NCBI RefSeq assembly: GCF_003236295.1
Contig: NZ_POTW01000004.1
Location: 62,001-126,000 of the forward strand
Length of the DNA: 64,000 bases
Direction: 5' to 3'
DNA from: Jiangella anatolica
GTDB lineage: Bacteria > Actinomycetota > Actinomycetes > Jiangellales > Jiangellaceae
Shown in pieces: positions 25,917 through 63,043 of this stretch. The notes beneath the pieces are model-generated. The model was given only the letters and a program-made list of their open reading frames with translations, ran no database searches and was not told where the DNA came from. Made by a program: the position numbers and the translations under genes. Within the stretch, counting starts at the first letter, position 1, and every line of letters begins with the position of its first letter.

Positions 25917-27152
25917 TCATTCCCAGCGGCCCGCTAGGCACGATTGCGTCGCGGTGCCGAGCGCGGCCACGGCGGCTGCGCCGGCGATCGCGGCGAGCAC
26001 GGCGAACATGGCCGGGTAGGAGCCAACGGTGGCGGCGATGGCGCTGCCGGCCCAGGGCGCGATGGCCATGGCGATGGTGGTGGGGGCGTTGAGGATGCCG
26101 TAGAGGGTGCCGAAGCCGGTGATGCCCCACCGGTCGCTGACGGCGGTGGACTGCAGGAGGGTGAAGGCGCCGCGGGCGATGCCGAGGATGATGCTCGCGG
26201 CCACGAGGACGGCGGCCGGGCCGGGGAGCAAGCCGGCGGCGGCGATGGTGACGGCGCCTCCGGCGAGGATGGCGACGGACCGGAAGCGCGGGGTGGTGCG
26301 GCGCGACAGCGGCGCGTAGCCGATGCGGCCGAGCAGCTGCCCGGCACCGGACAGGCCGAGCGCCCAGGCCGCGAGCGTCATGGACAGGCCGCGGTCGGCG
26401 AGCAGCGGGATGAGGTGGATGGTGGCGGCGAACATCGCGAACGCCGTGAGAGCCGAGGCGATGGTGAGGCAGACGAAGGCGCGGCTGGTCGCGACCGCGC
26501 GAATGTGGCCGTTGCGCAGCCGCGGATGGGCCGCGTGGTCGGGTGCGGGCCAGGGCGCGGCGAGACCCAGCGCGTGGCCGGGGATGGTGGAGACCGCCAG
26601 GAGGACCGCGAGCACGACGTAGGTCTGCCGCCAGCCGAACTGGTCGAGGAGGGCGGCGGTGGCCGGGGCGAAGATGGTGCTGGACAGGCCGGCGACCAGG
26701 GTCAGGACGGTCAGCGCGTGGGTGCGGTGCGGGCCGTACCAGCGGGTCAGCGCGGTGAACGCTGCCGCGTAGAGGGTGCCGGCCTGGGCGAGCCCGGCGA
26801 CCACCCAGGCGGCGGCGAACCAGCCGACGTTCGGTGCGGCGGCAATACTGAGTGTCGCGGCGACTCCGACGACCGAGCCGAGGGTCATGACGAGCCGCGG
26901 ACCGTAGCGGTCGATGGCGCGTCCGGCCGGGATACCGACGACGGCCGCCACCACGAACGCGAGCGAGAAGGCCGCCGTCGTCGATGGGTCGGACCAGCCG
27001 GTGGCCGCGGTGATGGTCGGCAACGCGACCGGGAATGAGTAGTAAAGGACACCCCAGCCGACGATCTGCGTCAGGCACAGTGCGGCCAGCGCGCGCCGCG
27101 GAGTGGCCGGCTGCGCGGACCGGCCGTCCTCGGCGCGGCGGGTTCGGTTCAC
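25917..27152 (-). CDS. MFS transporter coupled to a flavin monooxygenase
   Basis: The 411-residue protein has about 12 membrane helices and MFS loop motifs (GIPAGRAIDRYGPRLVMTLG). It starts at GTG 27152, overlapping the stop of the flavin monooxygenase gene by four bases. The pair faces an arsR gene that probably controls it. Export of arsenite or an oxidised organoarsenical is a reasonable guess; no sequence feature names the substrate. Confidence 0.85.
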   Translation of the reverse strand: MNRTRRAEDGRSAQPATPRRALAALCLTQIVGWGVLYYSFPVALPTITAATGWSDPSTTAAFSLAFVVAAVVGIPAGRAIDRYGPRLVMTLGSVVGVAATLSIAAAPNVGWFAAAWVVAGLAQAGTLYAAAFTALTRWYGPHRTHALTVLTLVAGLSSTIFAPATAALLDQFGWRQTYVVLAVLLAVSTIPGHALGLAAPWPAPDHAAHPRLRNGHIRAVATSRAFVCLTIASALTAFAMFAATIHLIPLLADRGLSMTLAAWALGLSGAGQLLGRIGYAPLSRRTTPRFRSVAILAGGAVTIAAAGLLPGPAAVLVAASIILGIARGAFTLLQSTAVSDRWGITGFGTLYGILNAPTTIAMAIAPWAGSAIAATVGSYPAMFAVLAAIAGAAAVAALGTATQSCLAGRWE

Positions 27153-28228
27153 AGGCCGATGATGGCGGGCGCCTGCTGGACGTGGGCGGCCAGCGGTCCG
27201 ACGACGTAGTCGGCGTCGCGGCTGACACCGCGGATGGTGTTGGAGGAGAACGAGCGCTGGAACTCCAGGCCCAGGTAGACGAGGCCGGGGTGGGTGGTGG
27301 AGATGCCGTCGACGTGCAGCGGCAGGCCGTTCTCGTCCAGCGCGCCGAGTGGGCGCAGGTAGTCGACGTTGGGCCGGTACCCGGTGGCGAAGACGACGGC
27401 GTCGACGTGCTCGCGCTCGCCGTCGGCCCAGACGACGCCGTCGGCGTCGAAGGCGGTGAACATGGCTCGCCGCTCGACCTGGCCGGACTCGATGGCCTCG
27501 CGGTAGTGGCCGGTGTCCAGCACGAGCGGCTTGCGGACGATGTGCCGCAGCCAGGCCGCGGGCAGGTGGTCGAAGCCGGTGACCTCGAGCCAGTGGTGCA
27601 GGTCGCGGCCGCGGATCACCTGCGGGAGGAAGTGCACCGGCGCGAGCGTGGCCAGCGTCAGGTCGGCGACGGCGGCGAGCTCGTCGGCGATCTGCACGCC
27701 CGAGTTGCCGCCGCCGACGACGATGACGCGCCTGCCTGCGTATGGGGCGGGGTTGCGGTAGCCGGCGACGTGCAGTAACTCGCCGGTGAAGGACTCCTGG
27801 CCGGGCAGGGTCGGGGTGATCGGGCTGCCGAATGAGCCGGAGGCCGCAACCAGGCCCGCGGCCGGGTGGGCGTCGCCGTGGGCGGTGTGGACGATGAACC
27901 CGGTGCCGTCGGCCTCCACCGCGCTCACCCGGGTGTGGGTGCGGATGTCGACGCCGAGGTGCTGGGCGTAGTGGTCGAGGTAGTCGGCGACCTCCTCGCG
28001 GGTGGGGTAGCGGTCGGGGTCGCCGTCCATCGGGAAGCCGGGCATGGCGCTGTAGCGGGCGGGGGAGAAGACCCGCAGGCTGTCGTAGTAGTGCGGCCAG
28101 GACCCGGCCGGCCGGTCGCCGGCCTCGAGTACGACGGGGTGCAGGCCTGCGTCGCGGACGGCGCGGGCGGCGGCGAGGCCGGACTGGCCGGCGCCGACGA
28201 CGATCACAGGGAGCGCGGTGGCGGTCAT
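27149..28228 (-). CDS. ArsO-like flavin-dependent monooxygenase, second copy
   Basis: From ATG 28228 the protein has 359 residues. It has VIVVGAGQSGLAAARAVRDA near the start, RVIVVGGGNSGVQIADEL in the middle and ATGYRPNVDYLRPLG near the end, the short flavin-monooxygenase layout shared with the gene at 11504. It is translationally coupled to the downstream MFS transporter and divergent from arsR. The likely role is oxidation of an arsenic compound before export, inferred from context only. Confidence 0.78.
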   Translation of the reverse strand: MTATALPVIVVGAGQSGLAAARAVRDAGLHPVVLEAGDRPAGSWPHYYDSLRVFSPARYSAMPGFPMDGDPDRYPTREEVADYLDHYAQHLGVDIRTHTRVSAVEADGTGFIVHTAHGDAHPAAGLVAASGSFGSPITPTLPGQESFTGELLHVAGYRNPAPYAGRRVIVVGGGNSGVQIADELAAVADLTLATLAPVHFLPQVIRGRDLHHWLEVTGFDHLPAAWLRHIVRKPLVLDTGHYREAIESGQVERRAMFTAFDADGVVWADGEREHVDAVVFATGYRPNVDYLRPLGALDENGLPLHVDGISTTHPGLVYLGLEFQRSFSSNTIRGVSRDADYVVGPLAAHVQQAPAIIGL

Positions 28229-28293
28229 GCCAGTCAACATATCGTCGATTCGCGAGATGGCAAAATGACGATACGTTGCGTATTCTCGGCGGC
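28229..28293. promoter_or_regulatory. Divergent promoter, monooxygenase-MFS / arsR
   Basis: The 65-bp gap contains AACATATCGTCGATTCGCGA and AATGACGATACGTT, with repeated ATATCGTC/GACGATA inverted elements suitable for an ArsR-type repressor. Neither start has a strong ribosome-binding site. Confidence 0.5.
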
Positions 28294-28638
28294 ATGAGCG
28301 AAGTCGTGGCGGCGGGGGAGCGCAGGTCGTTGCCGCTGGTGACCGACGATCTGGTCGAGCTCAGTGACGCCACGCTTGACTTCCTCAAGGCGCTGGCCAA
28401 TCCGGCCCGGCAGAAGATCATGCTGCTGTTCGCCCGCGGCGCCGAGTTGTCCGTGGGGGAGATCGCCGAGCTCGCCGACATCGGCCAGTCGACCGCGTCG
28501 GAGCAGTTGAAGCTCCTGCGCCGTGGCGGCATCGTCACCTCGCGGCGCGACGGCAAGACCGTCTACTACCGCGCCAACAAGGACGGCATGGCCCGCGCCC
28601 TCGAGGACCTCCAGAACTACCTCAAGGTCTGCTGCTGA
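28294..28638 (+). CDS. ArsR-family repressor with C-terminal Cys-Cys
   Basis: The 114-residue protein has an ArsR fold: FLKALANPARQKIMLLFARG, then IGQSTASEQLKLLRRGGIV and the wing SRRDGKTVYYRA. Its only cysteines are the last two residues (LKVCC), so a metalloid site would have to use this tail. That is unlike the helix-bound sites of well-known ArsR proteins. It is divergent from the monooxygenase-MFS pair and six bases upstream of an acetyltransferase-like gene. Confidence 0.88.
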   Translation: MSEVVAAGERRSLPLVTDDLVELSDATLDFLKALANPARQKIMLLFARGAELSVGEIAELADIGQSTASEQLKLLRRGGIVTSRRDGKTVYYRANKDGMARALEDLQNYLKVCC

Positions 28639-29095: not shown

Positions 29096-29461
29096 TCACT
29101 GACCCAGGGCTAGGGCGTCGCGGATGGCAGCGAGGCGTTCGGGGATGACGCGGTAGTAGATCCAGGTGCCGCGGCGGTCGCCGGTGATCAGGCCGACGTC
29201 GCGCAGCAGCTTCAGGTGGTGGCTGGTCGTGGCCGCCGTCTTGCCGATGCTCGCTGAGAAGTCGCACGCGCAGACCTCGTCCGCGTTGAGCAGCATCGAC
29301 AGGATCTTCACCCGTGCGGGGTCGGCCAGCGCCTTGAACATGCCCGCGAGCAGCGAGGCGTCGCCGTCGCTCATGGCCGACGTCGGCGTGCAGCAGTCGT
29401 TCAACACCGGCAGAGCGCGAGCGTTCGCCGGTGCGATCGGGCTGATCGTGGTGGTGGTCAT
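29096..29461 (-). CDS. arsR: ArsR repressor with Cys-Cys N-terminal site (cassette copy A)
   Basis: The 121-residue ArsR has MFKALADPARVKILSMLLNA and TAATTSHHLKLLRD. Cysteines 23-24 (NDCCTP) and 64/66 (VCACDF) match the Cys15-Cys16-Cys55 arsenite site known from Corynebacterium glutamicum ArsR. It is almost identical to the protein at 50547. It is divergent from a 64-residue CC protein and a 17-residue cysteine-rich peptide. Both copies of this cassette keep that order. Confidence 0.92.
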   Translation of the reverse strand: MTTTTISPIAPANARALPVLNDCCTPTSAMSDGDASLLAGMFKALADPARVKILSMLLNADEVCACDFSASIGKTAATTSHHLKLLRDVGLITGDRRGTWIYYRVIPERLAAIRDALALGQ

Positions 29462-29602
29462 CGTCGCTCCAGGTTACCCGGGAAGGTCGGCTGTTTCCAT
29501 GATTGTCGAAATTTGTTTTGACAATCGTCGAATCAATGTTTAGATGAACATCGAAACAGGGTCGGCTGTTCCGGCCTCGTGGACCACTGCCGAGGAGGCG
29601 TC
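29462..29602. promoter_or_regulatory. Divergent promoter of cassette copy A
   Basis: This AT-rich segment holds TTGTCGAAATTTGTTTTGACAA (inverted TTGTC/GACAA). It also holds CGAATCAATGTTTAGATGAA followed by CATCGAAAC, which is conserved almost base for base at 50970-51010. AGATGAAC may overlap a -10 box for the plus-strand small genes. Confidence 0.6.
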
Positions 29603-29797
29603 ATGGACCCGTACCTGCCCGAGACGATGGCTGCCGAGCGTCGTCGCGATCTGATCGCCGAGGCCGCCCACCAGCGTCTCGTCGCGTTGGCGACCTGCTG
29701 CCGCAGGAGCGCCCTTGGGCGCGCCGTGTCGCGGGTCCGCGACGTCTGGGCAGCGCGGTCCGCTAACCGCGGCGCCGCCTGCTGCGCCGCGGCCTGA
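29603..29797 (+). CDS. Conserved 64-residue protein with two Cys-Cys pairs (cassette copy A)
   Basis: The start follows GAGGAGGCGTC, a strong ribosome-binding site. The product is a basic helical protein with CC at 32-33 (LVALATCCRRS) and 60-61 (RGAACCAAA). The copy at 51050 has the same length and cysteine positions with many substitutions elsewhere, which argues for selection. I know no named family. Placement beside an arsenite-sensing ArsR suggests arsenite binding or delivery, but this is untested. Confidence 0.75.
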   Translation: MDPYLPETMAAERRRDLIAEAAHQRLVALATCCRRSALGRAVSRVRDVWAARSANRGAACCAAA

Positions 29798-29838
29798 CCA
29801 CCAACCCATCAGCGAGGCTGCGAGGGAGGTTGACCACG

Positions 29839-29892
29839 ATGGACTGCTGCGACGACCAGACCACGGACTCCTGCAACACCAGTTGCTGCTGA
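29839..29892 (+). CDS. 17-residue cysteine-rich peptide (cassette copy A)
   Basis: The open frame encodes MDCCDDQTTDSCNTSCC, preceded by GAGGGAGGTTGACCACG with a clear ribosome-binding site. Cysteines are at 3, 4, 12, 16 and 17. The second copy at 51279 encodes MDCCDDQTTDCCDTGCC with the same length, start context and CC ends. Conservation of ribosome-binding site, frame and cysteines across two diverged copies supports a real peptide. It could be a tiny arsenite-binding peptide, a leader peptide or a sensor. It lies 41 bp after the 64-residue gene. Confidence 0.72.
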   Translation: MDCCDDQTTDSCNTSCC

Positions 29893-30139
29893 ACCACAGG
29901 AGAGTGGGTGGCGCGCCGGCATCCGGTGTCGGCGCCTGCTGCCATACGGAACTGCGAGTGGGCCAGCGCTGCGACGATCTCGTACACGATCCGCGTGAGC
30001 TCGCTTGAGAACCGGGCTCGACGGCGGGTTCGTCGAGGAGACAGTTGTTACGGACCCTGGTGGCGCCGGTCGGATTCTCGCGTCGACAAACAGGCAGGTC
30101 GCGTGTCGAATGTCCGGGTTGCCGTTACGCTGCCGCGCT

Positions 30140-30676
30140 GTGGATGCAGAGGGATGGGGCCTGACGTTCGGCATCGCCGGTGGTGCCGCCGGTATCGTTT
30201 CGGCGTACATCGCATGGCTGGCGTACCGCGGTGCGGGTCGGTCGGCCGGGGACTCGAATCGATCGGCGGACGCTGCCGAGAGGTCGGCGGATGCCTCGGA
30301 GAAGTCGGCCGAGACCTCCGAGCGGTCGGCGACGGCCGCCGAGGAGGCTGTGCAGTTGGCGAAGGAACGAGCCAAGCGCGATCGAGAGACGGAGCTCCGC
30401 GATCGTGTGCAGTGGGAGATCCGTCAGCCTGACCACCACATGTTCTTCGAGCTGGTTAACAAGGGCCACGGGACCGCCTACGGCGTAGCCGTCGACCTGC
30501 CCGATGGGACCAGCCCCGGGCCGTACGTGATCGAGGGCGGCGAAGCTGAGGCGTTCACGCCGCAATGGCCGCTGGTCCGGGGGTACCCGCTCACGATCAA
30601 AGTGGGCTGGCACCTGGAGCCTGACCTAATCGACATGCCCCCAAAGACTAAGCGGCTGATCATCCAGCGCCCGTGA
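30140..30676 (+). CDS. Hypothetical protein, N-terminal helix and coiled coil
   Basis: The GTG at 30140 gives 178 residues with an N-terminal membrane helix (about residues 7-24). A heptad-like alanine/serine/glutamate stretch follows (SADASEKSAETSERSATAAE, about residues 40-68). A beta-rich C-terminus has FELVNKGHGTAYGVAVDLP. This layout recalls the protein at 10902. The family is unknown. There is no clear ribosome-binding site, and a leaderless start is possible. Confidence 0.55.
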   Translation: MDAEGWGLTFGIAGGAAGIVSAYIAWLAYRGAGRSAGDSNRSADAAERSADASEKSAETSERSATAAEEAVQLAKERAKRDRETELRDRVQWEIRQPDHHMFFELVNKGHGTAYGVAVDLPDGTSPGPYVIEGGEAEAFTPQWPLVRGYPLTIKVGWHLEPDLIDMPPKTKRLIIQRP

Positions 30677-50050: not shown

Positions 50051-50461
50051 TCAGCCCGCGCTCTCCTTCAGGGACGCGATGAGCGCCTCGACGCGGCCAC
50101 GGATCTCGTCGCGGATGGGGCGGACGGCCTCGATGCCCTGGCCGGCCGGGTCGTCCAGCTCCCAGTCCTCGTAGCGCTTGCCCGGGTAGAACGGGCAGGC
50201 GTCGCCGCAGCCCATGGTGATGACGACGTCGGACTCCTGGACCGCCTCGTCGGTGAGGATCTTCGGCTGCTCCGCGGCGATGTCGATGCCGACCTCGGCC
50301 ATCGCCGCGACGGCGACGGGGTTCACCTGGTCGGCGGGCGCGGAGCCGGCCGAGCGGACCTCGATGTCGCCGCCGGACAGGTGGCTGAGGAATCCTGCCG
50401 CCATCTGAGAGCGGCCGGCGTTGTGGACGCAGACGAACAGCACGCTGGGCTTGTCGGTCAC
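50051..50461 (-). CDS. arsC: Arsenate reductase, duplicate of the gene at 12594
   Basis: The 136-residue protein (GTG start) differs from the copy at 12594 at only a few positions. It keeps CVHNAGRS and MGCGDACPFYPGKRYEDW. It should be functional. Upstream, the second arsC of the original operon is reduced to a remnant, and the next gene is arsR of a duplicated cassette. It lies outside the tRNA-bounded island. Confidence 0.9.
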   Translation of the reverse strand: MTDKPSVLFVCVHNAGRSQMAAGFLSHLSGGDIEVRSAGSAPADQVNPVAVAAMAEVGIDIAAEQPKILTDEAVQESDVVITMGCGDACPFYPGKRYEDWELDDPAGQGIEAVRPIRDEIRGRVEALIASLKESAG

Positions 50462-50540
50462 CTGGGCTCCGTGTCGGTGAGGTCGGCGAGCAGCGCTCGG
50501 ACGCGGCCGTCGCCACAGCCCATCGTAATGACGACGTCCG
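50458..50540 (-). pseudogene. Remnant of a second arsC (internal deletion)
   Basis: The sequence joins a piece of the arsC at 13001 (VVITMGCGD) to its last codons (RVRALLADLTDTEPR) and ends in the same GTGA overlap as the intact operon. The N-terminus, P-loop and most of the domain are gone. This shows the cassette once had arsR-arsC-arsC order. Confidence 0.8.
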
Positions 50541-50546
50541 TAGGGC

Positions 50547-50912
50547 TCACTGGCCCAGGGTCAAGGCGTCGCGGATGGCTGTGAGGCGCTCGGGGATCAC
50601 GCGGTAGTAGACCCAGGTGCCGCGCCGGTCGCCGGTGATCAGCCCGGCGTCGCGCAGCAGCTTGAGGTGGTGGCTGGTGGTGGCCGCCGTCTTGCCGATG
50701 CTCGCCGAGAAGTCGCAGGCGCAGACCTCGTCGGCGTTGAGCAGCATCGACAGGATCTTCACTCGCGCCGGGTCGGCCAGTGCCTTGAACATGCCGGCCA
50801 GCAGCGAGGCGTCGTCGTCGCTCATGGCCGAGGTCGGCGTGCAGCAGTCGTTCAGCACCGGTAGCGGTCGTGCGGTCGCGGGTGCCTCGGGGCCGATCGT
50901 CGCGGTGCTCAT
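50547..50912 (-). CDS. arsR: ArsR repressor with Cys-Cys site (cassette copy B)
   Basis: This 121-residue protein is nearly identical to the one at 29096, including NDCCTPTSAM (Cys23-24), DEVCACDF and the recognition helix. The first 16 residues have diverged. It is divergent from the copy-B small genes, as in copy A. Confidence 0.92.
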   Translation of the reverse strand: MSTATIGPEAPATARPLPVLNDCCTPTSAMSDDDASLLAGMFKALADPARVKILSMLLNADEVCACDFSASIGKTAATTSHHLKLLRDAGLITGDRRGTWVYYRVIPERLTAIRDALTLGQ

Positions 50913-51049
50913 GGTGGCCTCAGCCTACTCGTTGGAGTGGTCTGTTTCGAAGATCTTCGCAGCATTGCTTTGAGATTCTTCGAATCAGTGTTTAGATGAA
51001 CGTCGAAACACGGTCTGGATGTTCCAGCCCGCGAGCTGGAGGAGGCGTC
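50913..51049. promoter_or_regulatory. Divergent promoter of cassette copy B
   Basis: TTCGAAGATCTTCGCA and TTCTTCGAATCAGTGTTTAG lie here. The segment CGAATCA-GTGTTTAGATGAA followed by CGTCGAAAC repeats the copy-A sequence at 29530-29552 with few changes. That marks the likely ArsR operator. Confidence 0.6.
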
Positions 51050-51244
51050 ATGTACCCGTACCTGCCCGAGGTCATCGCGACCGAACGCCGGCGTGATCTC
51101 CTCGCCGAGGCGGCCCGTCGGCGGCTCGTCGCCATCGCGACGTGCTGCCGCCGCAGCGGCTTCGCCCGAGCCGCCGACCGGCTGCGCGCGGCGTGGGCCG
51201 CGCTCACCGCGAGCCGCGGCGCCGCCTGCTGCGCGACCGCCTGA
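51050..51244 (+). CDS. Conserved 64-residue protein with two Cys-Cys pairs (cassette copy B)
   Basis: The product has the same length as copy A, with CC at 32-33 (LVAIATCCRRS) and 60-61 (RGAACCATA). About two-thirds of residues are shared and the changes are scattered. The ATG follows GGAGGAGGCGTC. The function is unknown. Confidence 0.75.
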   Translation: MYPYLPEVIATERRRDLLAEAARRRLVAIATCCRRSGFARAADRLRAAWAALTASRGAACCATA

Positions 51245-51278
51245 GCCCACCCATACGCGGAGAGAGGAGGTGGCGACG

Positions 51279-51332
51279 ATGGACTGCTGTGACGACCAGA
51301 CCACCGACTGCTGCGACACCGGCTGCTGCTGA
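51279..51332 (+). CDS. 17-residue cysteine-rich peptide (cassette copy B)
   Basis: The peptide MDCCDDQTTDCCDTGCC has six cysteines (3, 4, 11, 12, 16, 17) in three CC pairs. AGAGAGGAGGTGGCGACG precedes the ATG with a strong ribosome-binding site. Compared with copy A, changes are S11C, N13D and S15G, while all shared cysteines are kept. It starts 34 bp after the 64-residue gene. Confidence 0.75.
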   Translation: MDCCDDQTTDCCDTGCC

Positions 51333-61285: not shown

Positions 61286-63043
61286 ATGCCCACAGAACTC
61301 ACGGACGCCGCGGGCTGCTCGGATGCCGACCCGGCGGGGCTGGGCCGGGGACCTCTGACGCGCCGGCTGCCCGTGCTTCTGCATGCCCCCGCCCAACCGC
61401 CCGAGGCGGGGCCGTTCGAGGCCGCGGCGGGGATCACGCCAGGTCGATTCCTGCTGCGCGTGATCCTCTCGGTGAAGCGGGTCACCGTTCCCGCGATGCT
61501 GCTGGCGATCGTGTGGCAGGTGGGCGAGTCGGCGGTCCCCGTGGTGATGGGTGTCGCGATCGACCGCGCGCTGGCGACCGGCGACACGGCGCAGCTGGTG
61601 CTGTGGCTCGGCGTGCTGGTGGCCCTCTACATCGTGTTGACGGTGGCGGCGAAGCTCGCGAATCGGCTGACCGCGTATGCGGTGCAGCTGCTGCAGCACC
61701 GGCTCCGCAGCACCCTCTCGACCGGCGTGCTGCATCCGGCCGGCGGTGCGGCCCGGGCGCCGGACGGCAGCGTCGTCTCCGTGATGACCAGCGACGTCGC
61801 CCGCCTCGCCAACGCGGGGATCCTGGTGATCCTGCCGATCTCGAGGATCGCGGCCATCGGGTTCATCGCGGTGTCGCTGCTGGCGACGCACTGGCTGCTC
61901 GGGCTTGTGGTGCTGGTGGGAGCGCCCGTCGCGGTGTGGTCGATGGGCGTGCTCAGCCGGCGCCTTTCCCAGGACACCCGCGAGTACCAGGGGCTACTGG
62001 CTTCCACCGTCGGGCGGGCCACGGATCTGGTCGCCGGATACCGGGTGGTCAAGGGGTTGCGCGCGGAGGCCGAGGCGACCAGGCGGTACCGGGAGGCAAG
62101 CCAGGAGACCCTCGTCGGAGCCAAGCGCAACGCGGGACTGCTGGGGAGGTTCCTCGTGGGCTCGGGTGCGGTCACTGGCGCGTTCGTCGCCGCGGTGATG
62201 GGGCTGGCGGGCTGGTTCGCCGTGGATGGTCAGCTGAGCGTCGGCGGGCTGATCGCCGCCGTCGGCCTCACCCAGGCACTGCTGCCGCAGATCCAGTCGA
62301 TCGCGAACGCGTCCATCCCCAACCTCGCCGGAGGCCTCGCCTCGTCCGCGCGCGTCATCGACGTGCTGCGGGGCGCCGACAGCGGGAACCGCGGACCCGA
62401 CGACGCAGCATGCGATGAGGTCGCGCCGCTGCCGGTGCTGGAGGTGTTCGCGCCCGGTGCGACGATCCGGGTGGAGCCCGGAGAGCTCGTGGCGGTCCGC
62501 GCCGACGACCGGACCGCCGCCCGCATCGCCGCGACGCTGCTGGACCCGCGAGCCGGCGGCGAGGTCGAGGTGCGGCTCGACGGGCGCGCGGCGCGGGAGC
62601 TGACGGCGGATGAGTACCGCTCCCGGGTCACGGTCGCGCCGCACCGGGCCACCCTGTTCAGCGGCACGATCCGCGACAACCTCACCGTCAGGGGCGGCGG
62701 GCCCGAGAGGGTGGAGGCCGCGGTGCGGGCCGCGGCGTGCGACGACTTCGCCGCCGATCTCGACGTCCCGGTCGGCGAGGGCGGCAACCGTCTCTCTGGC
62801 GGCCAACGCCAGCGGGTCGCTCTCGCCCGCGCCCTCGCGAGCGACGCGCCGGTGCTCGTGCTGCACGACCCGACCACGGCGGTGGACTCGGTCACCGAGC
62901 ACGCGATCGCGGGGCGGCTGCGCGGCGTCCGTGCCGGCCGTTCGACGCTGCTGATCGCATCGTCGCCGGTGCTGCTCGGCTGCTGCGACCGCGTCGTCGA
63001 CGTCCTCGCGGACGCGCCGGTGGGCGAAGGGGCGGCGCGGTGA
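61286..63043 (+). CDS. Exporter-fold ABC protein with degenerate ATP site
   Basis: The 585-residue protein has six membrane helices (about residues 55-310) and a C-terminal ATPase domain. Walker A is replaced by ELVAVRADDRTAAR, and Walker B reads VLVLHDPTTAVD with His and Asp in place of Asp-Glu. The signature LSGGQRQRVALARAL is intact. It should pair with the next gene, like the heterodimeric IrtAB-type siderophore importers, with one consensus and one degenerate site. It is co-transcribed with the esterase. Confidence 0.85.
   Translation: MPTELTDAAGCSDADPAGLGRGPLTRRLPVLLHAPAQPPEAGPFEAAAGITPGRFLLRVILSVKRVTVPAMLLAIVWQVGESAVPVVMGVAIDRALATGDTAQLVLWLGVLVALYIVLTVAAKLANRLTAYAVQLLQHRLRSTLSTGVLHPAGGAARAPDGSVVSVMTSDVARLANAGILVILPISRIAAIGFIAVSLLATHWLLGLVVLVGAPVAVWSMGVLSRRLSQDTREYQGLLASTVGRATDLVAGYRVVKGLRAEAEATRRYREASQETLVGAKRNAGLLGRFLVGSGAVTGAFVAAVMGLAGWFAVDGQLSVGGLIAAVGLTQALLPQIQSIANASIPNLAGGLASSARVIDVLRGADSGNRGPDDAACDEVAPLPVLEVFAPGATIRVEPGELVAVRADDRTAARIAATLLDPRAGGEVEVRLDGRAARELTADEYRSRVTVAPHRATLFSGTIRDNLTVRGGGPERVEAAVRAAACDDFAADLDVPVGEGGNRLSGGQRQRVALARALASDAPVLVLHDPTTAVDSVTEHAIAGRLRGVRAGRSTLLIASSPVLLGCCDRVVDVLADAPVGEGAAR

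Follow-up and report, generated by a model that had tools for sequence, protein, structure and literature searches.

Bacterial metallothioneins are high in cysteine and have almost no aromatic residues. In Synechococcus PCC 7942 the genes smtA and smtB form a divergon, being 100 bp apart, and the bmtA/bxmR pair is comparable (PMC8790569, from an excerpt). EC20, an engineered gene-encoded peptide, made E. coli cells displaying it more resistant to arsenic (PMC4611968, from an excerpt), and EC20 and the phytochelatins alike are short, acidic and cysteine-rich chelators, the phytochelatins being made by enzymes and EC20 being man-made and surface-displayed (PMC4611968 and PMC9917255, in the parts used here). 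The type 3 repressor CgArsR has three cysteine ligands for As(III), at positions 15, 16 and 55 (PMC11868830, from an excerpt). Very short, conserved and cysteine-rich open reading frames (ORFs) are also known from mycobacteria, where leaderless poly-cysteine ORFs act as cysteine-responsive attenuators (Canestrari 2020, as given in an excerpt of PMC9094748). Among the titles and abstract openings listed in searches of an open-access collection we saw no paper on peptides such as those described below standing beside arsR.

The genes analysed here resemble smtA/smtB and bmtA/bxmR, as the excerpt describes them, in that a cysteine-rich and putatively metal-binding gene is divergent from, or co-operonic with, the gene of an ArsR/SmtB repressor and is accompanied by inverted repeats, and the 100-bp spacing of smtA/smtB resembles that of many peptide-arsR pairs. 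This divergon layout is also found in Jiangellaceae, where the repeat was recognised by eye only and a 64-aa gene lies in between. Unlike SmtA and BmtA, the products have 11-31 residues and no Pfam match (eight of at least 20 aa scanned) and, unlike in the smtB system, the repressor bears CC and CxC thiols. By analogy the peptides look like natural ribosomal counterparts of phytochelatins and EC20 placed beside ArsR.

Two copies of an arsR-peptide module in Jiangella anatolica

The window analysed is a stretch of 64,000 nucleotides of Jiangella anatolica (positions 62,001 to 126,000 of contig NZ_POTW01000004.1). The original prediction had placed in it a 17-residue cysteine peptide and a second copy, each with a ribosome-binding site, behind a 64-aa CC protein and opposite an ArsR with a CC pair; we confirmed both ORFs and both Shine-Dalgarno (SD) sequences, and the layout is true of both copies. 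The first peptide (MDCCDDQTTDSCNTSCC, then stop) lies at 29839..29892 on the + strand, with AGGGAGG at 29823..29829 (+), and the second (MDCCDDQTTDCCDTGCC, then stop) at 51279..51332 (+), with AGGAGG at 51265..51270 (+). Within a module of about 0.8 kb the order is arsR on the - strand, the divergent gene of the 64-aa CC protein (copy 1, MDPYLPETMAAERRRDL...ACCAAA, 29603..29797, +; copy 2, 51050..51244, +) and then the peptide, at 41 bp from the 64-aa gene in copy 1 and 34 bp in copy 2. The two modules are 80.9% identical over 802 columns bounded by the stop codons of arsR and of the peptide, and blastn (E 1e-5) found no homology other than the module between 24-36 kb and 44-58 kb. Because the limits of homology coincide with these two stops, the peptide forms the outer edge of the copied unit.

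Downstream of copy 2 a convergent AraC-type gene lies 130 bp away, and 113 bp downstream of copy 1 an ORF without a known family (30005-30676) begins on the same strand. A sigma-70 scan of both cassettes gave no promoter, a terminator scan of both gave none after the peptides and a sole terminator-like site at 50925-50940, before the 64-aa gene, and Rfam had no match within 28000-52500.

Both repressors are ArsR/SmtB-family proteins of 121 aa carrying C23-C24 and C64-x-C66 (copy 1, 29096..29461, -; copy 2, 50547..50912, -). They pass the cut-offs of PF01022 (HTH_5; 47.5 and 50.2 bits, cut-off 22) and of the metalloregulator subfamily NF033788 (87.4 and 89.3 bits, cut-off 55), and score below those of the Rv2640c family NF041413 (91 and 96.5, cut-off 155 bits) and of CmtR. 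When aligned with CgArsR (PDB 6J0E) the N-terminal CC pair, which in the excerpt cited above supplies two of the three As(III) ligands, falls in place and the third cysteine is out of register; unlike CgArsR, the window ArsR has a CxC at C64/C66. Its nearest named relatives are from Jiangella, with up to 92% identity, and the same query against plasmids gave 139 records, all of them below 60% identity.

Other genes of the window resemble ars genes. An ArsO-like flavin monooxygenase (27149..28240, -; 256.3 bits, cut-off 425) and an ArsK-like MFS permease (25917..27200, start not fixed, -; 149.3 bits, cut-off 400) lie near copy 1, and a protein like the low-molecular-weight arsenate reductases (ArsC-like; 50051..50461, -) lies beside copy 2, with a best NCBIfam score of 104.7 (cut-off 157.6) and a Pfam LMWPc score above cut-off. 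The genome of the window gave no match to Acr3 in a search that, as a control, was positive in 7/14 genomes. A second and different ArsR, with a CC end, adjoins the first cassette at 28276-28638 (+) and is divergent from the gene of the ArsO-like enzyme. Positions 50480-50550, lying between arsR copy 2 and the ArsC-like gene, resemble by eye a part of the latter.

Conservation and coding selection in Jiangellaceae

A degenerate pattern of the peptide, searched with up to three mismatches in 99 genomes, was found in the genome of the window, in 9/11 other genomes of the genus, in 2/10 others of the family and in none of the 77 remaining ones, and the reversed pattern had no match in the same 99 genomes. 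In G005, one of the two misses within the genus, the 64-aa gene stands at approximately the position of the diverged peptide of Jiangella asiatica (L017), from which we infer that the true count for the genus is probably 10/11. An ArsR was present at 13/13 Jiangellaceae loci, together with an ORF of 63-64 aa at 34-55 bp upstream of the peptide.

The reading frame of the peptide is kept in 14 Jiangellaceae sequences, one of which has an in-frame extra residue (18 residues), and M1, D2, C3, C4 and the final two cysteines are invariant in the 14. Among the 13 sequences of equal length, the 18-residue one being left out, the peptide frame had pS of 0.296 and pN of 0.116 (pN/pS = 0.39) and the other two frames had ratios of 1.42 and 0.85; none of 200 column shuffles yielded a pN/pS as low as that of the peptide frame. 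In the same set mean identity reached 0.92 within the ORF, against 0.82 for the 20 preceding bases and 0.49 farther away on either side. A purine-rich stretch occupies the SD position in the 13 Jiangellaceae peptide ORFs, which had been found without an SD filter. Conservation of the frame beyond the two copies, on which the original prediction had staked itself, was thus found across Jiangellaceae, and the ORF evolves in the way that a protein does, a pattern expected of a translated and conserved peptide.

The 64-aa CC protein has no Pfam or NCBIfam family above cut-off. Its motif is PYLPE..AERRRDL..EAA..RL, and its invariant residues are mostly in the N-terminal half, with the CC near the end. 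Strong matches were obtained in 13 genomes among 296 of the class, all of them Jiangellaceae; three other genomes matched at approximately 22 bits (E between 5e-4 and 9e-4), which we took as chance, and none of 49 peptide loci outside Jiangellaceae (see below) had the protein. As far as searched, the 64-aa protein is specific to Jiangellaceae and the peptide-ArsR pair is much wider, which the original prediction had not foreseen.

Peptides divergent from ArsR outside Jiangellaceae

ArsR loci were fetched from named genomes for the best 80 of 186 hits. Divergent short cysteine-rich ORFs with an SD-like sequence beside ArsR appeared in Aeromicrobium terrae, in several metagenome-assembled genomes (MAGs) labelled Actinomycetota or Actinobacteria, in one MAG labelled Acidobacteriota and in a Dehalococcoidia MAG. 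The ArsRs of L020-L024 (Propionibacteriales, Pedococcus, Ornithinibacter, Intrasporangium and Cryobacterium), 60-67% identical, had no such peptide, nor had 38 of the ArsR hits fetched later. In the MAG labelled Acidobacteriota (L025) the peptide and its SD context are identical to those of L208 of an actinobacterial family, so that the label is probably wrong.

A model (A4) made from six peptide-bearing ArsRs then served to search 396 genomes from the phylum, along with 101, 17 and 14 from three families, and more stretches were retrieved; peptides were accepted if they stood near ArsR behind a Shine-Dalgarno sequence and had at least four cysteines and at least 18% cysteine. This gave 62 distinct peptides, 49 of them outside Jiangellaceae. 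Peptides divergent from CC-type ArsRs thus occur in several actinobacterial families and in a Dehalococcoidia MAG. The pattern search matched in Jiangellaceae; elsewhere, with ArsR as the starting point, the peptides obtained are alike and unalignable.

The 49 peptides have 11-31 aa (mean 17.5) and contain, after the methionine, 37.7% Cys, 16.5% Gly, 15.2% Asp and 6.7% Pro, with 0.1% Phe and no Trp or Tyr, a metallothionein-like composition in which the cysteine content was part of the selection. Net charge is zero or negative in 49/49, CC is present in 49/49, and 44/49 are CC-terminal. Examples are MDPDCCPPGCC (L112), MSCCDCDCDCCSGCC (L062), MARCECGCGCDCDCSGGCCC (L087) and MRNECCEGCCSTGCCGTGCC (L224); in the family f74, runs such as CDCDC or CECGCGCDCDC approach the (Glu-Cys)n of phytochelatins. 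Eight peptides of at least 20 aa, the length scanned (the window 17-mers are shorter), had no Pfam or NCBIfam match up to E = 10. The f61 peptides L098, L101 and L249 have 26-28 aa, with a cysteine-free N-terminal half and a CC-rich tail, and L101 and L249 begin alike (MAPI.ITG). A different and conserved short ORF with only two cysteines, reading MKRFMVPRTAHCSDGCQAMSWA and MKRFMVPRVAHCSDGCIPGSWA and having a GTG start and a Shine-Dalgarno sequence, is divergent from ArsR at L248 and L250; these peptides (MKRFMVPR.AHCSDGC) were excluded from all counts.

The position of the peptides relative to arsR was compared with control positions in two surveys. In the first (213 ArsR hits, L020 onward, with L097 dropped) a strict peptide was defined by an ATG, a Shine-Dalgarno sequence, 8-40 aa, at least four cysteines and a CC end, and it was found in the divergent 700 bp of 17/213 hits, compared with 0/213 upstream on the same strand, 0/213 downstream on each strand and 1/213 at 700-1400 bp; 20 sets of shuffled sequences contained none. 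In the second, which covered 286 distinct ArsRs, 45 loci were positive within 0-400 bp divergent (33.9 per 100 kb), with none in 590 kb upstream on the same strand, none in 609 kb downstream on the opposite strand, nine in 609 kb downstream on the same strand and six in 479 kb farther out on the divergent side. Seven of those nine are the same peptides reached through a second nearby ArsR, the other two being L182, which follows an aquaporin-like gene, and L130. The six comprise L017 and L266, which lie just past 400 bp, L165 and L203, which stand behind another gene, L143, which by eye is the end of an ArsI-like gene, and L189.

Within f74 a peptide stood within 200 bp in 29/31 ArsRs with E<=1e-43 and in 33/38 with E<=1e-40, and in 2/18 weaker ones. 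The five close ArsRs without one are L215, L230, L266, L268 and L273; L230 has arsM instead, and L266 has a candidate 425 bp off. Peptide-bearing loci went into the building of A4, and these prevalences are therefore not unbiased frequencies; the contrast between positions is independent of how A4 was built. On a FastTree tree of the ArsR domains the peptide trait (63/284) requires at least 16 changes, which indicates that it runs in clades and yet has been gained or lost many times.

Candidate operators

In the window an operator- or promoter-like element was recognised by eye between arsR and the 64-aa gene, at 29528..29555 in copy 1 (TCGAATCAATG..GAT..TCGAA) and at 50980..51007 in copy 2 (TCGAATCAGTG..GAT..TCGAA). 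Its core, TCGAATCARTG, GAT and TCGAA, is present, again by eye, in the 13 listed Jiangellaceae intergenic regions, and we regard it as a candidate operator. Outside Jiangellaceae the intergenic regions were searched for the inverted repeat ATYGA-N4..7-TCRAT. The form ATYGA-N6-TCRAT was present in 48/49 peptide intergenics, with at least two copies in 36 and a spacer that is always six, and its density was 16.4 per kb in these intergenics versus 0.28 per kb over all loci. The usual layout has one repeat near arsR and another ahead of the Shine-Dalgarno sequence of the peptide. The same repeat accompanies ArsRs without a peptide in 136/215 cases and ArsRs with one in 49/63; being common in the former, it marks the ArsR and not the peptide. 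It is therefore probably the operator of this group of ArsRs.

Gene neighbourhoods

A convergent gene, GTPase-like in a name given by eye, was found in 17/36 peptide loci of f74. Among the 49 loci the stop of the peptide overlaps that of the convergent gene by 4 bp in eight, and the convergent gene ends 6-69 bp beyond the peptide in 13 more (21/49 at -4 to +69), so that at these loci the peptide is a stand-alone gene. A same-strand ORF lies within 300 bp behind 20/49 peptides; 12 of these ORFs seem to be the GTPase-like gene read in antisense, and eight look real (L025, L034, L064, L098, L101, L112, L219 and L261). The types of gene behind, named by eye except for arsM, include an aminopeptidase-like gene (L034), GNAT-like genes (L098 and L101), a phosphoglucosamine-mutase-like gene (L112) and arsM (L064), this last an arsenite methyltransferase at 284.1 bits (cut-off 263).

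At L230 an arsenite methyltransferase (672-1727, -; 297.9 bits, cut-off 263) occupies the slot of the peptide. Its protein bears a cysteine-rich N-terminal stretch, GCGCSADDCAENGCCGD. A fusion or an exchange of peptide and methyltransferase functions may possibly have occurred at this locus. At L165 an ArsI/CadI enzyme precedes the peptide (182.3 bits, cut-off 116). An aquaporin-like gene comes before the peptide at L203, where it is divergent (a partial sequence, below cut-off), and at L182, where it is on the same strand as arsR (by eye); the peptides are MSTGCCDDECCEDGQDCC at L182 and MQLDCCDECGGDDCC at L203, and the two loci suggest an arsR-aquaporin-peptide set. No other ars gene was recognised by eye near most of the peptide loci, and the metal could therefore differ from arsenic.

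Function of the peptide

What the computation itself shows comprises the ORF with its conservation and coding selection, the association with ArsR in taxa far apart, the inverted repeats and the neighbouring genes. We consider it probable that the peptide is a gene-encoded micro-metallothionein, repressed by ArsR and directed at As(III) or a comparable soft metal(loid), in an arrangement resembling smtA/smtB. The ORF would be a micro-gene that is translated and under selection, the peptide itself being its product, and the divergent CC + CxC-type ArsR would repress it from operators between both genes. On binding of As(III), or of a comparable soft metal(loid), to the CC and CxC thiols of ArsR, the repressor would be released and both genes freed. 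The peptide, then produced in bulk, would bind or buffer the metal(loid) through its 4-9 closely spaced thiols in the manner of a metallothionein, or alternatively might pass it on to efflux or methylation where genes for these exist. Translation, ArsR binding, the inducer, thiol chelation and protection are the parts of this mechanism that we infer. Among the three readings offered by the original prediction, that of a miniature arsenic chelator fits best, given that cysteine is the main constant of the peptides, that ArsR and inverted repeats adjoin them and that links to arsM, arsI/cadI and aquaporin-like genes occur occasionally.

The peptide might instead chelate another thiophilic metal (Cd, Hg, Pb, Zn or Cu) sensed by ArsR, with arsenic being incidental. 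The ArsI/CadI family seen at one locus covers heavy metals generally, and the shortage of further ars genes by eye at most loci and the scores of the window ArsRs below the Rv2640c-family and CmtR cut-offs agree with such a view. The arsenic reading itself is weakened by the scores of the ArsC-, ArsO- and ArsK-like genes, which lie below their NCBIfam cut-offs. Two loci are nevertheless tied to arsenite methyltransferase, the N-terminal CC pair of ArsR matches that of CgArsR, and the window sits among ArsO-, ArsK- and ArsC-like genes; we regard another metal as unlikely. ArsD is a chaperone that brings As(III) to ArsA, and the peptide could similarly act on Ars proteins, either stripping As(III) from ArsR to reset it or delivering it to ArsM, an aquaporin or a pump. 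Its pairing with ArsR, and now and then with arsM and aquaporin-like genes, would be expected in that case; yet peptides of different families share little except cysteine and acidity, a pattern that does not point to contact with a specific protein, and most loci are without a recognised partner enzyme, and such a role seems to us quite unlikely.

A leader peptide, in which ribosomes stalling at the cysteine codons would sense cysteine or arsenite and thereby control a gene downstream, was the reading of the original prediction that fits poorly. The mycobacterial attenuators cited above provide a precedent, as far as the excerpt describes them, and a real-looking gene follows closely on the same strand at eight of the 49 loci, as an ORF does at copy 1 of the window at a distance of 113 bp. 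Unlike the mycobacterial ORFs, those described here have a Shine-Dalgarno sequence (a selection criterion outside Jiangellaceae, and a purine-rich stretch in the 13 unfiltered Jiangellaceae ORFs) and a divergent ArsR, and they share no common gene downstream, the downstream genes differing among loci. A convergent stop overlaps that of the peptide or a convergent gene ends close beyond it at the loci counted above, copy 2 of the window faces the AraC-type gene, and Rfam was silent over 28000-52500. We therefore rejected a leader or attenuator as the general explanation, there being no common downstream gene and many convergent neighbours, with the exception of the loci that have a same-strand gene, copy 1 included; overall the reading is very improbable. 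Equally improbable is a precursor of a modified peptide (RiPP) or a secreted metallophore. Shortness and cysteine richness would agree with it, and in copy 1 the 64-aa protein weakly matches FxSxx-COOH (TIGR04268; 14.7 bits, cut-off 28 bits; copy 2 has no match), but no recurrent modifying enzyme was seen by eye to adjoin the peptides.

Extending the micro-metallothionein reading beyond the window, gene-encoded phytochelatin-like peptides of down to 11 residues might be widespread, repeatedly gained or lost, and the chief or sole output of their own ArsR; they would then be among the smallest metal-resistance genes, overlooked because selection acts only on the number and spacing of their cysteines. 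We advance this broader proposal tentatively, as one that falls somewhat short of probable. The original prediction had warned that genes this short are easily missed, and the 17-residue gene is in our judgement real and one of them. Gene finders tend to skip such short ORFs, and a whole class of regulated metal-binding genes may consequently be overlooked. Three questions become testable: the minimum number of residues for a useful metallothionein, the evolution of proteins in which mainly cysteine number and spacing count, and the ways in which bacteria without an Acr3 pump cope with arsenite. Since the peptides are cheap to synthesise, direct binding tests are feasible, and ready-made short thiol chelators could serve in sensing or clean-up. 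If true, the broader proposal would add to arsenic biology a branch in which the metalloid is sequestered with a ribosomal micro-peptide.
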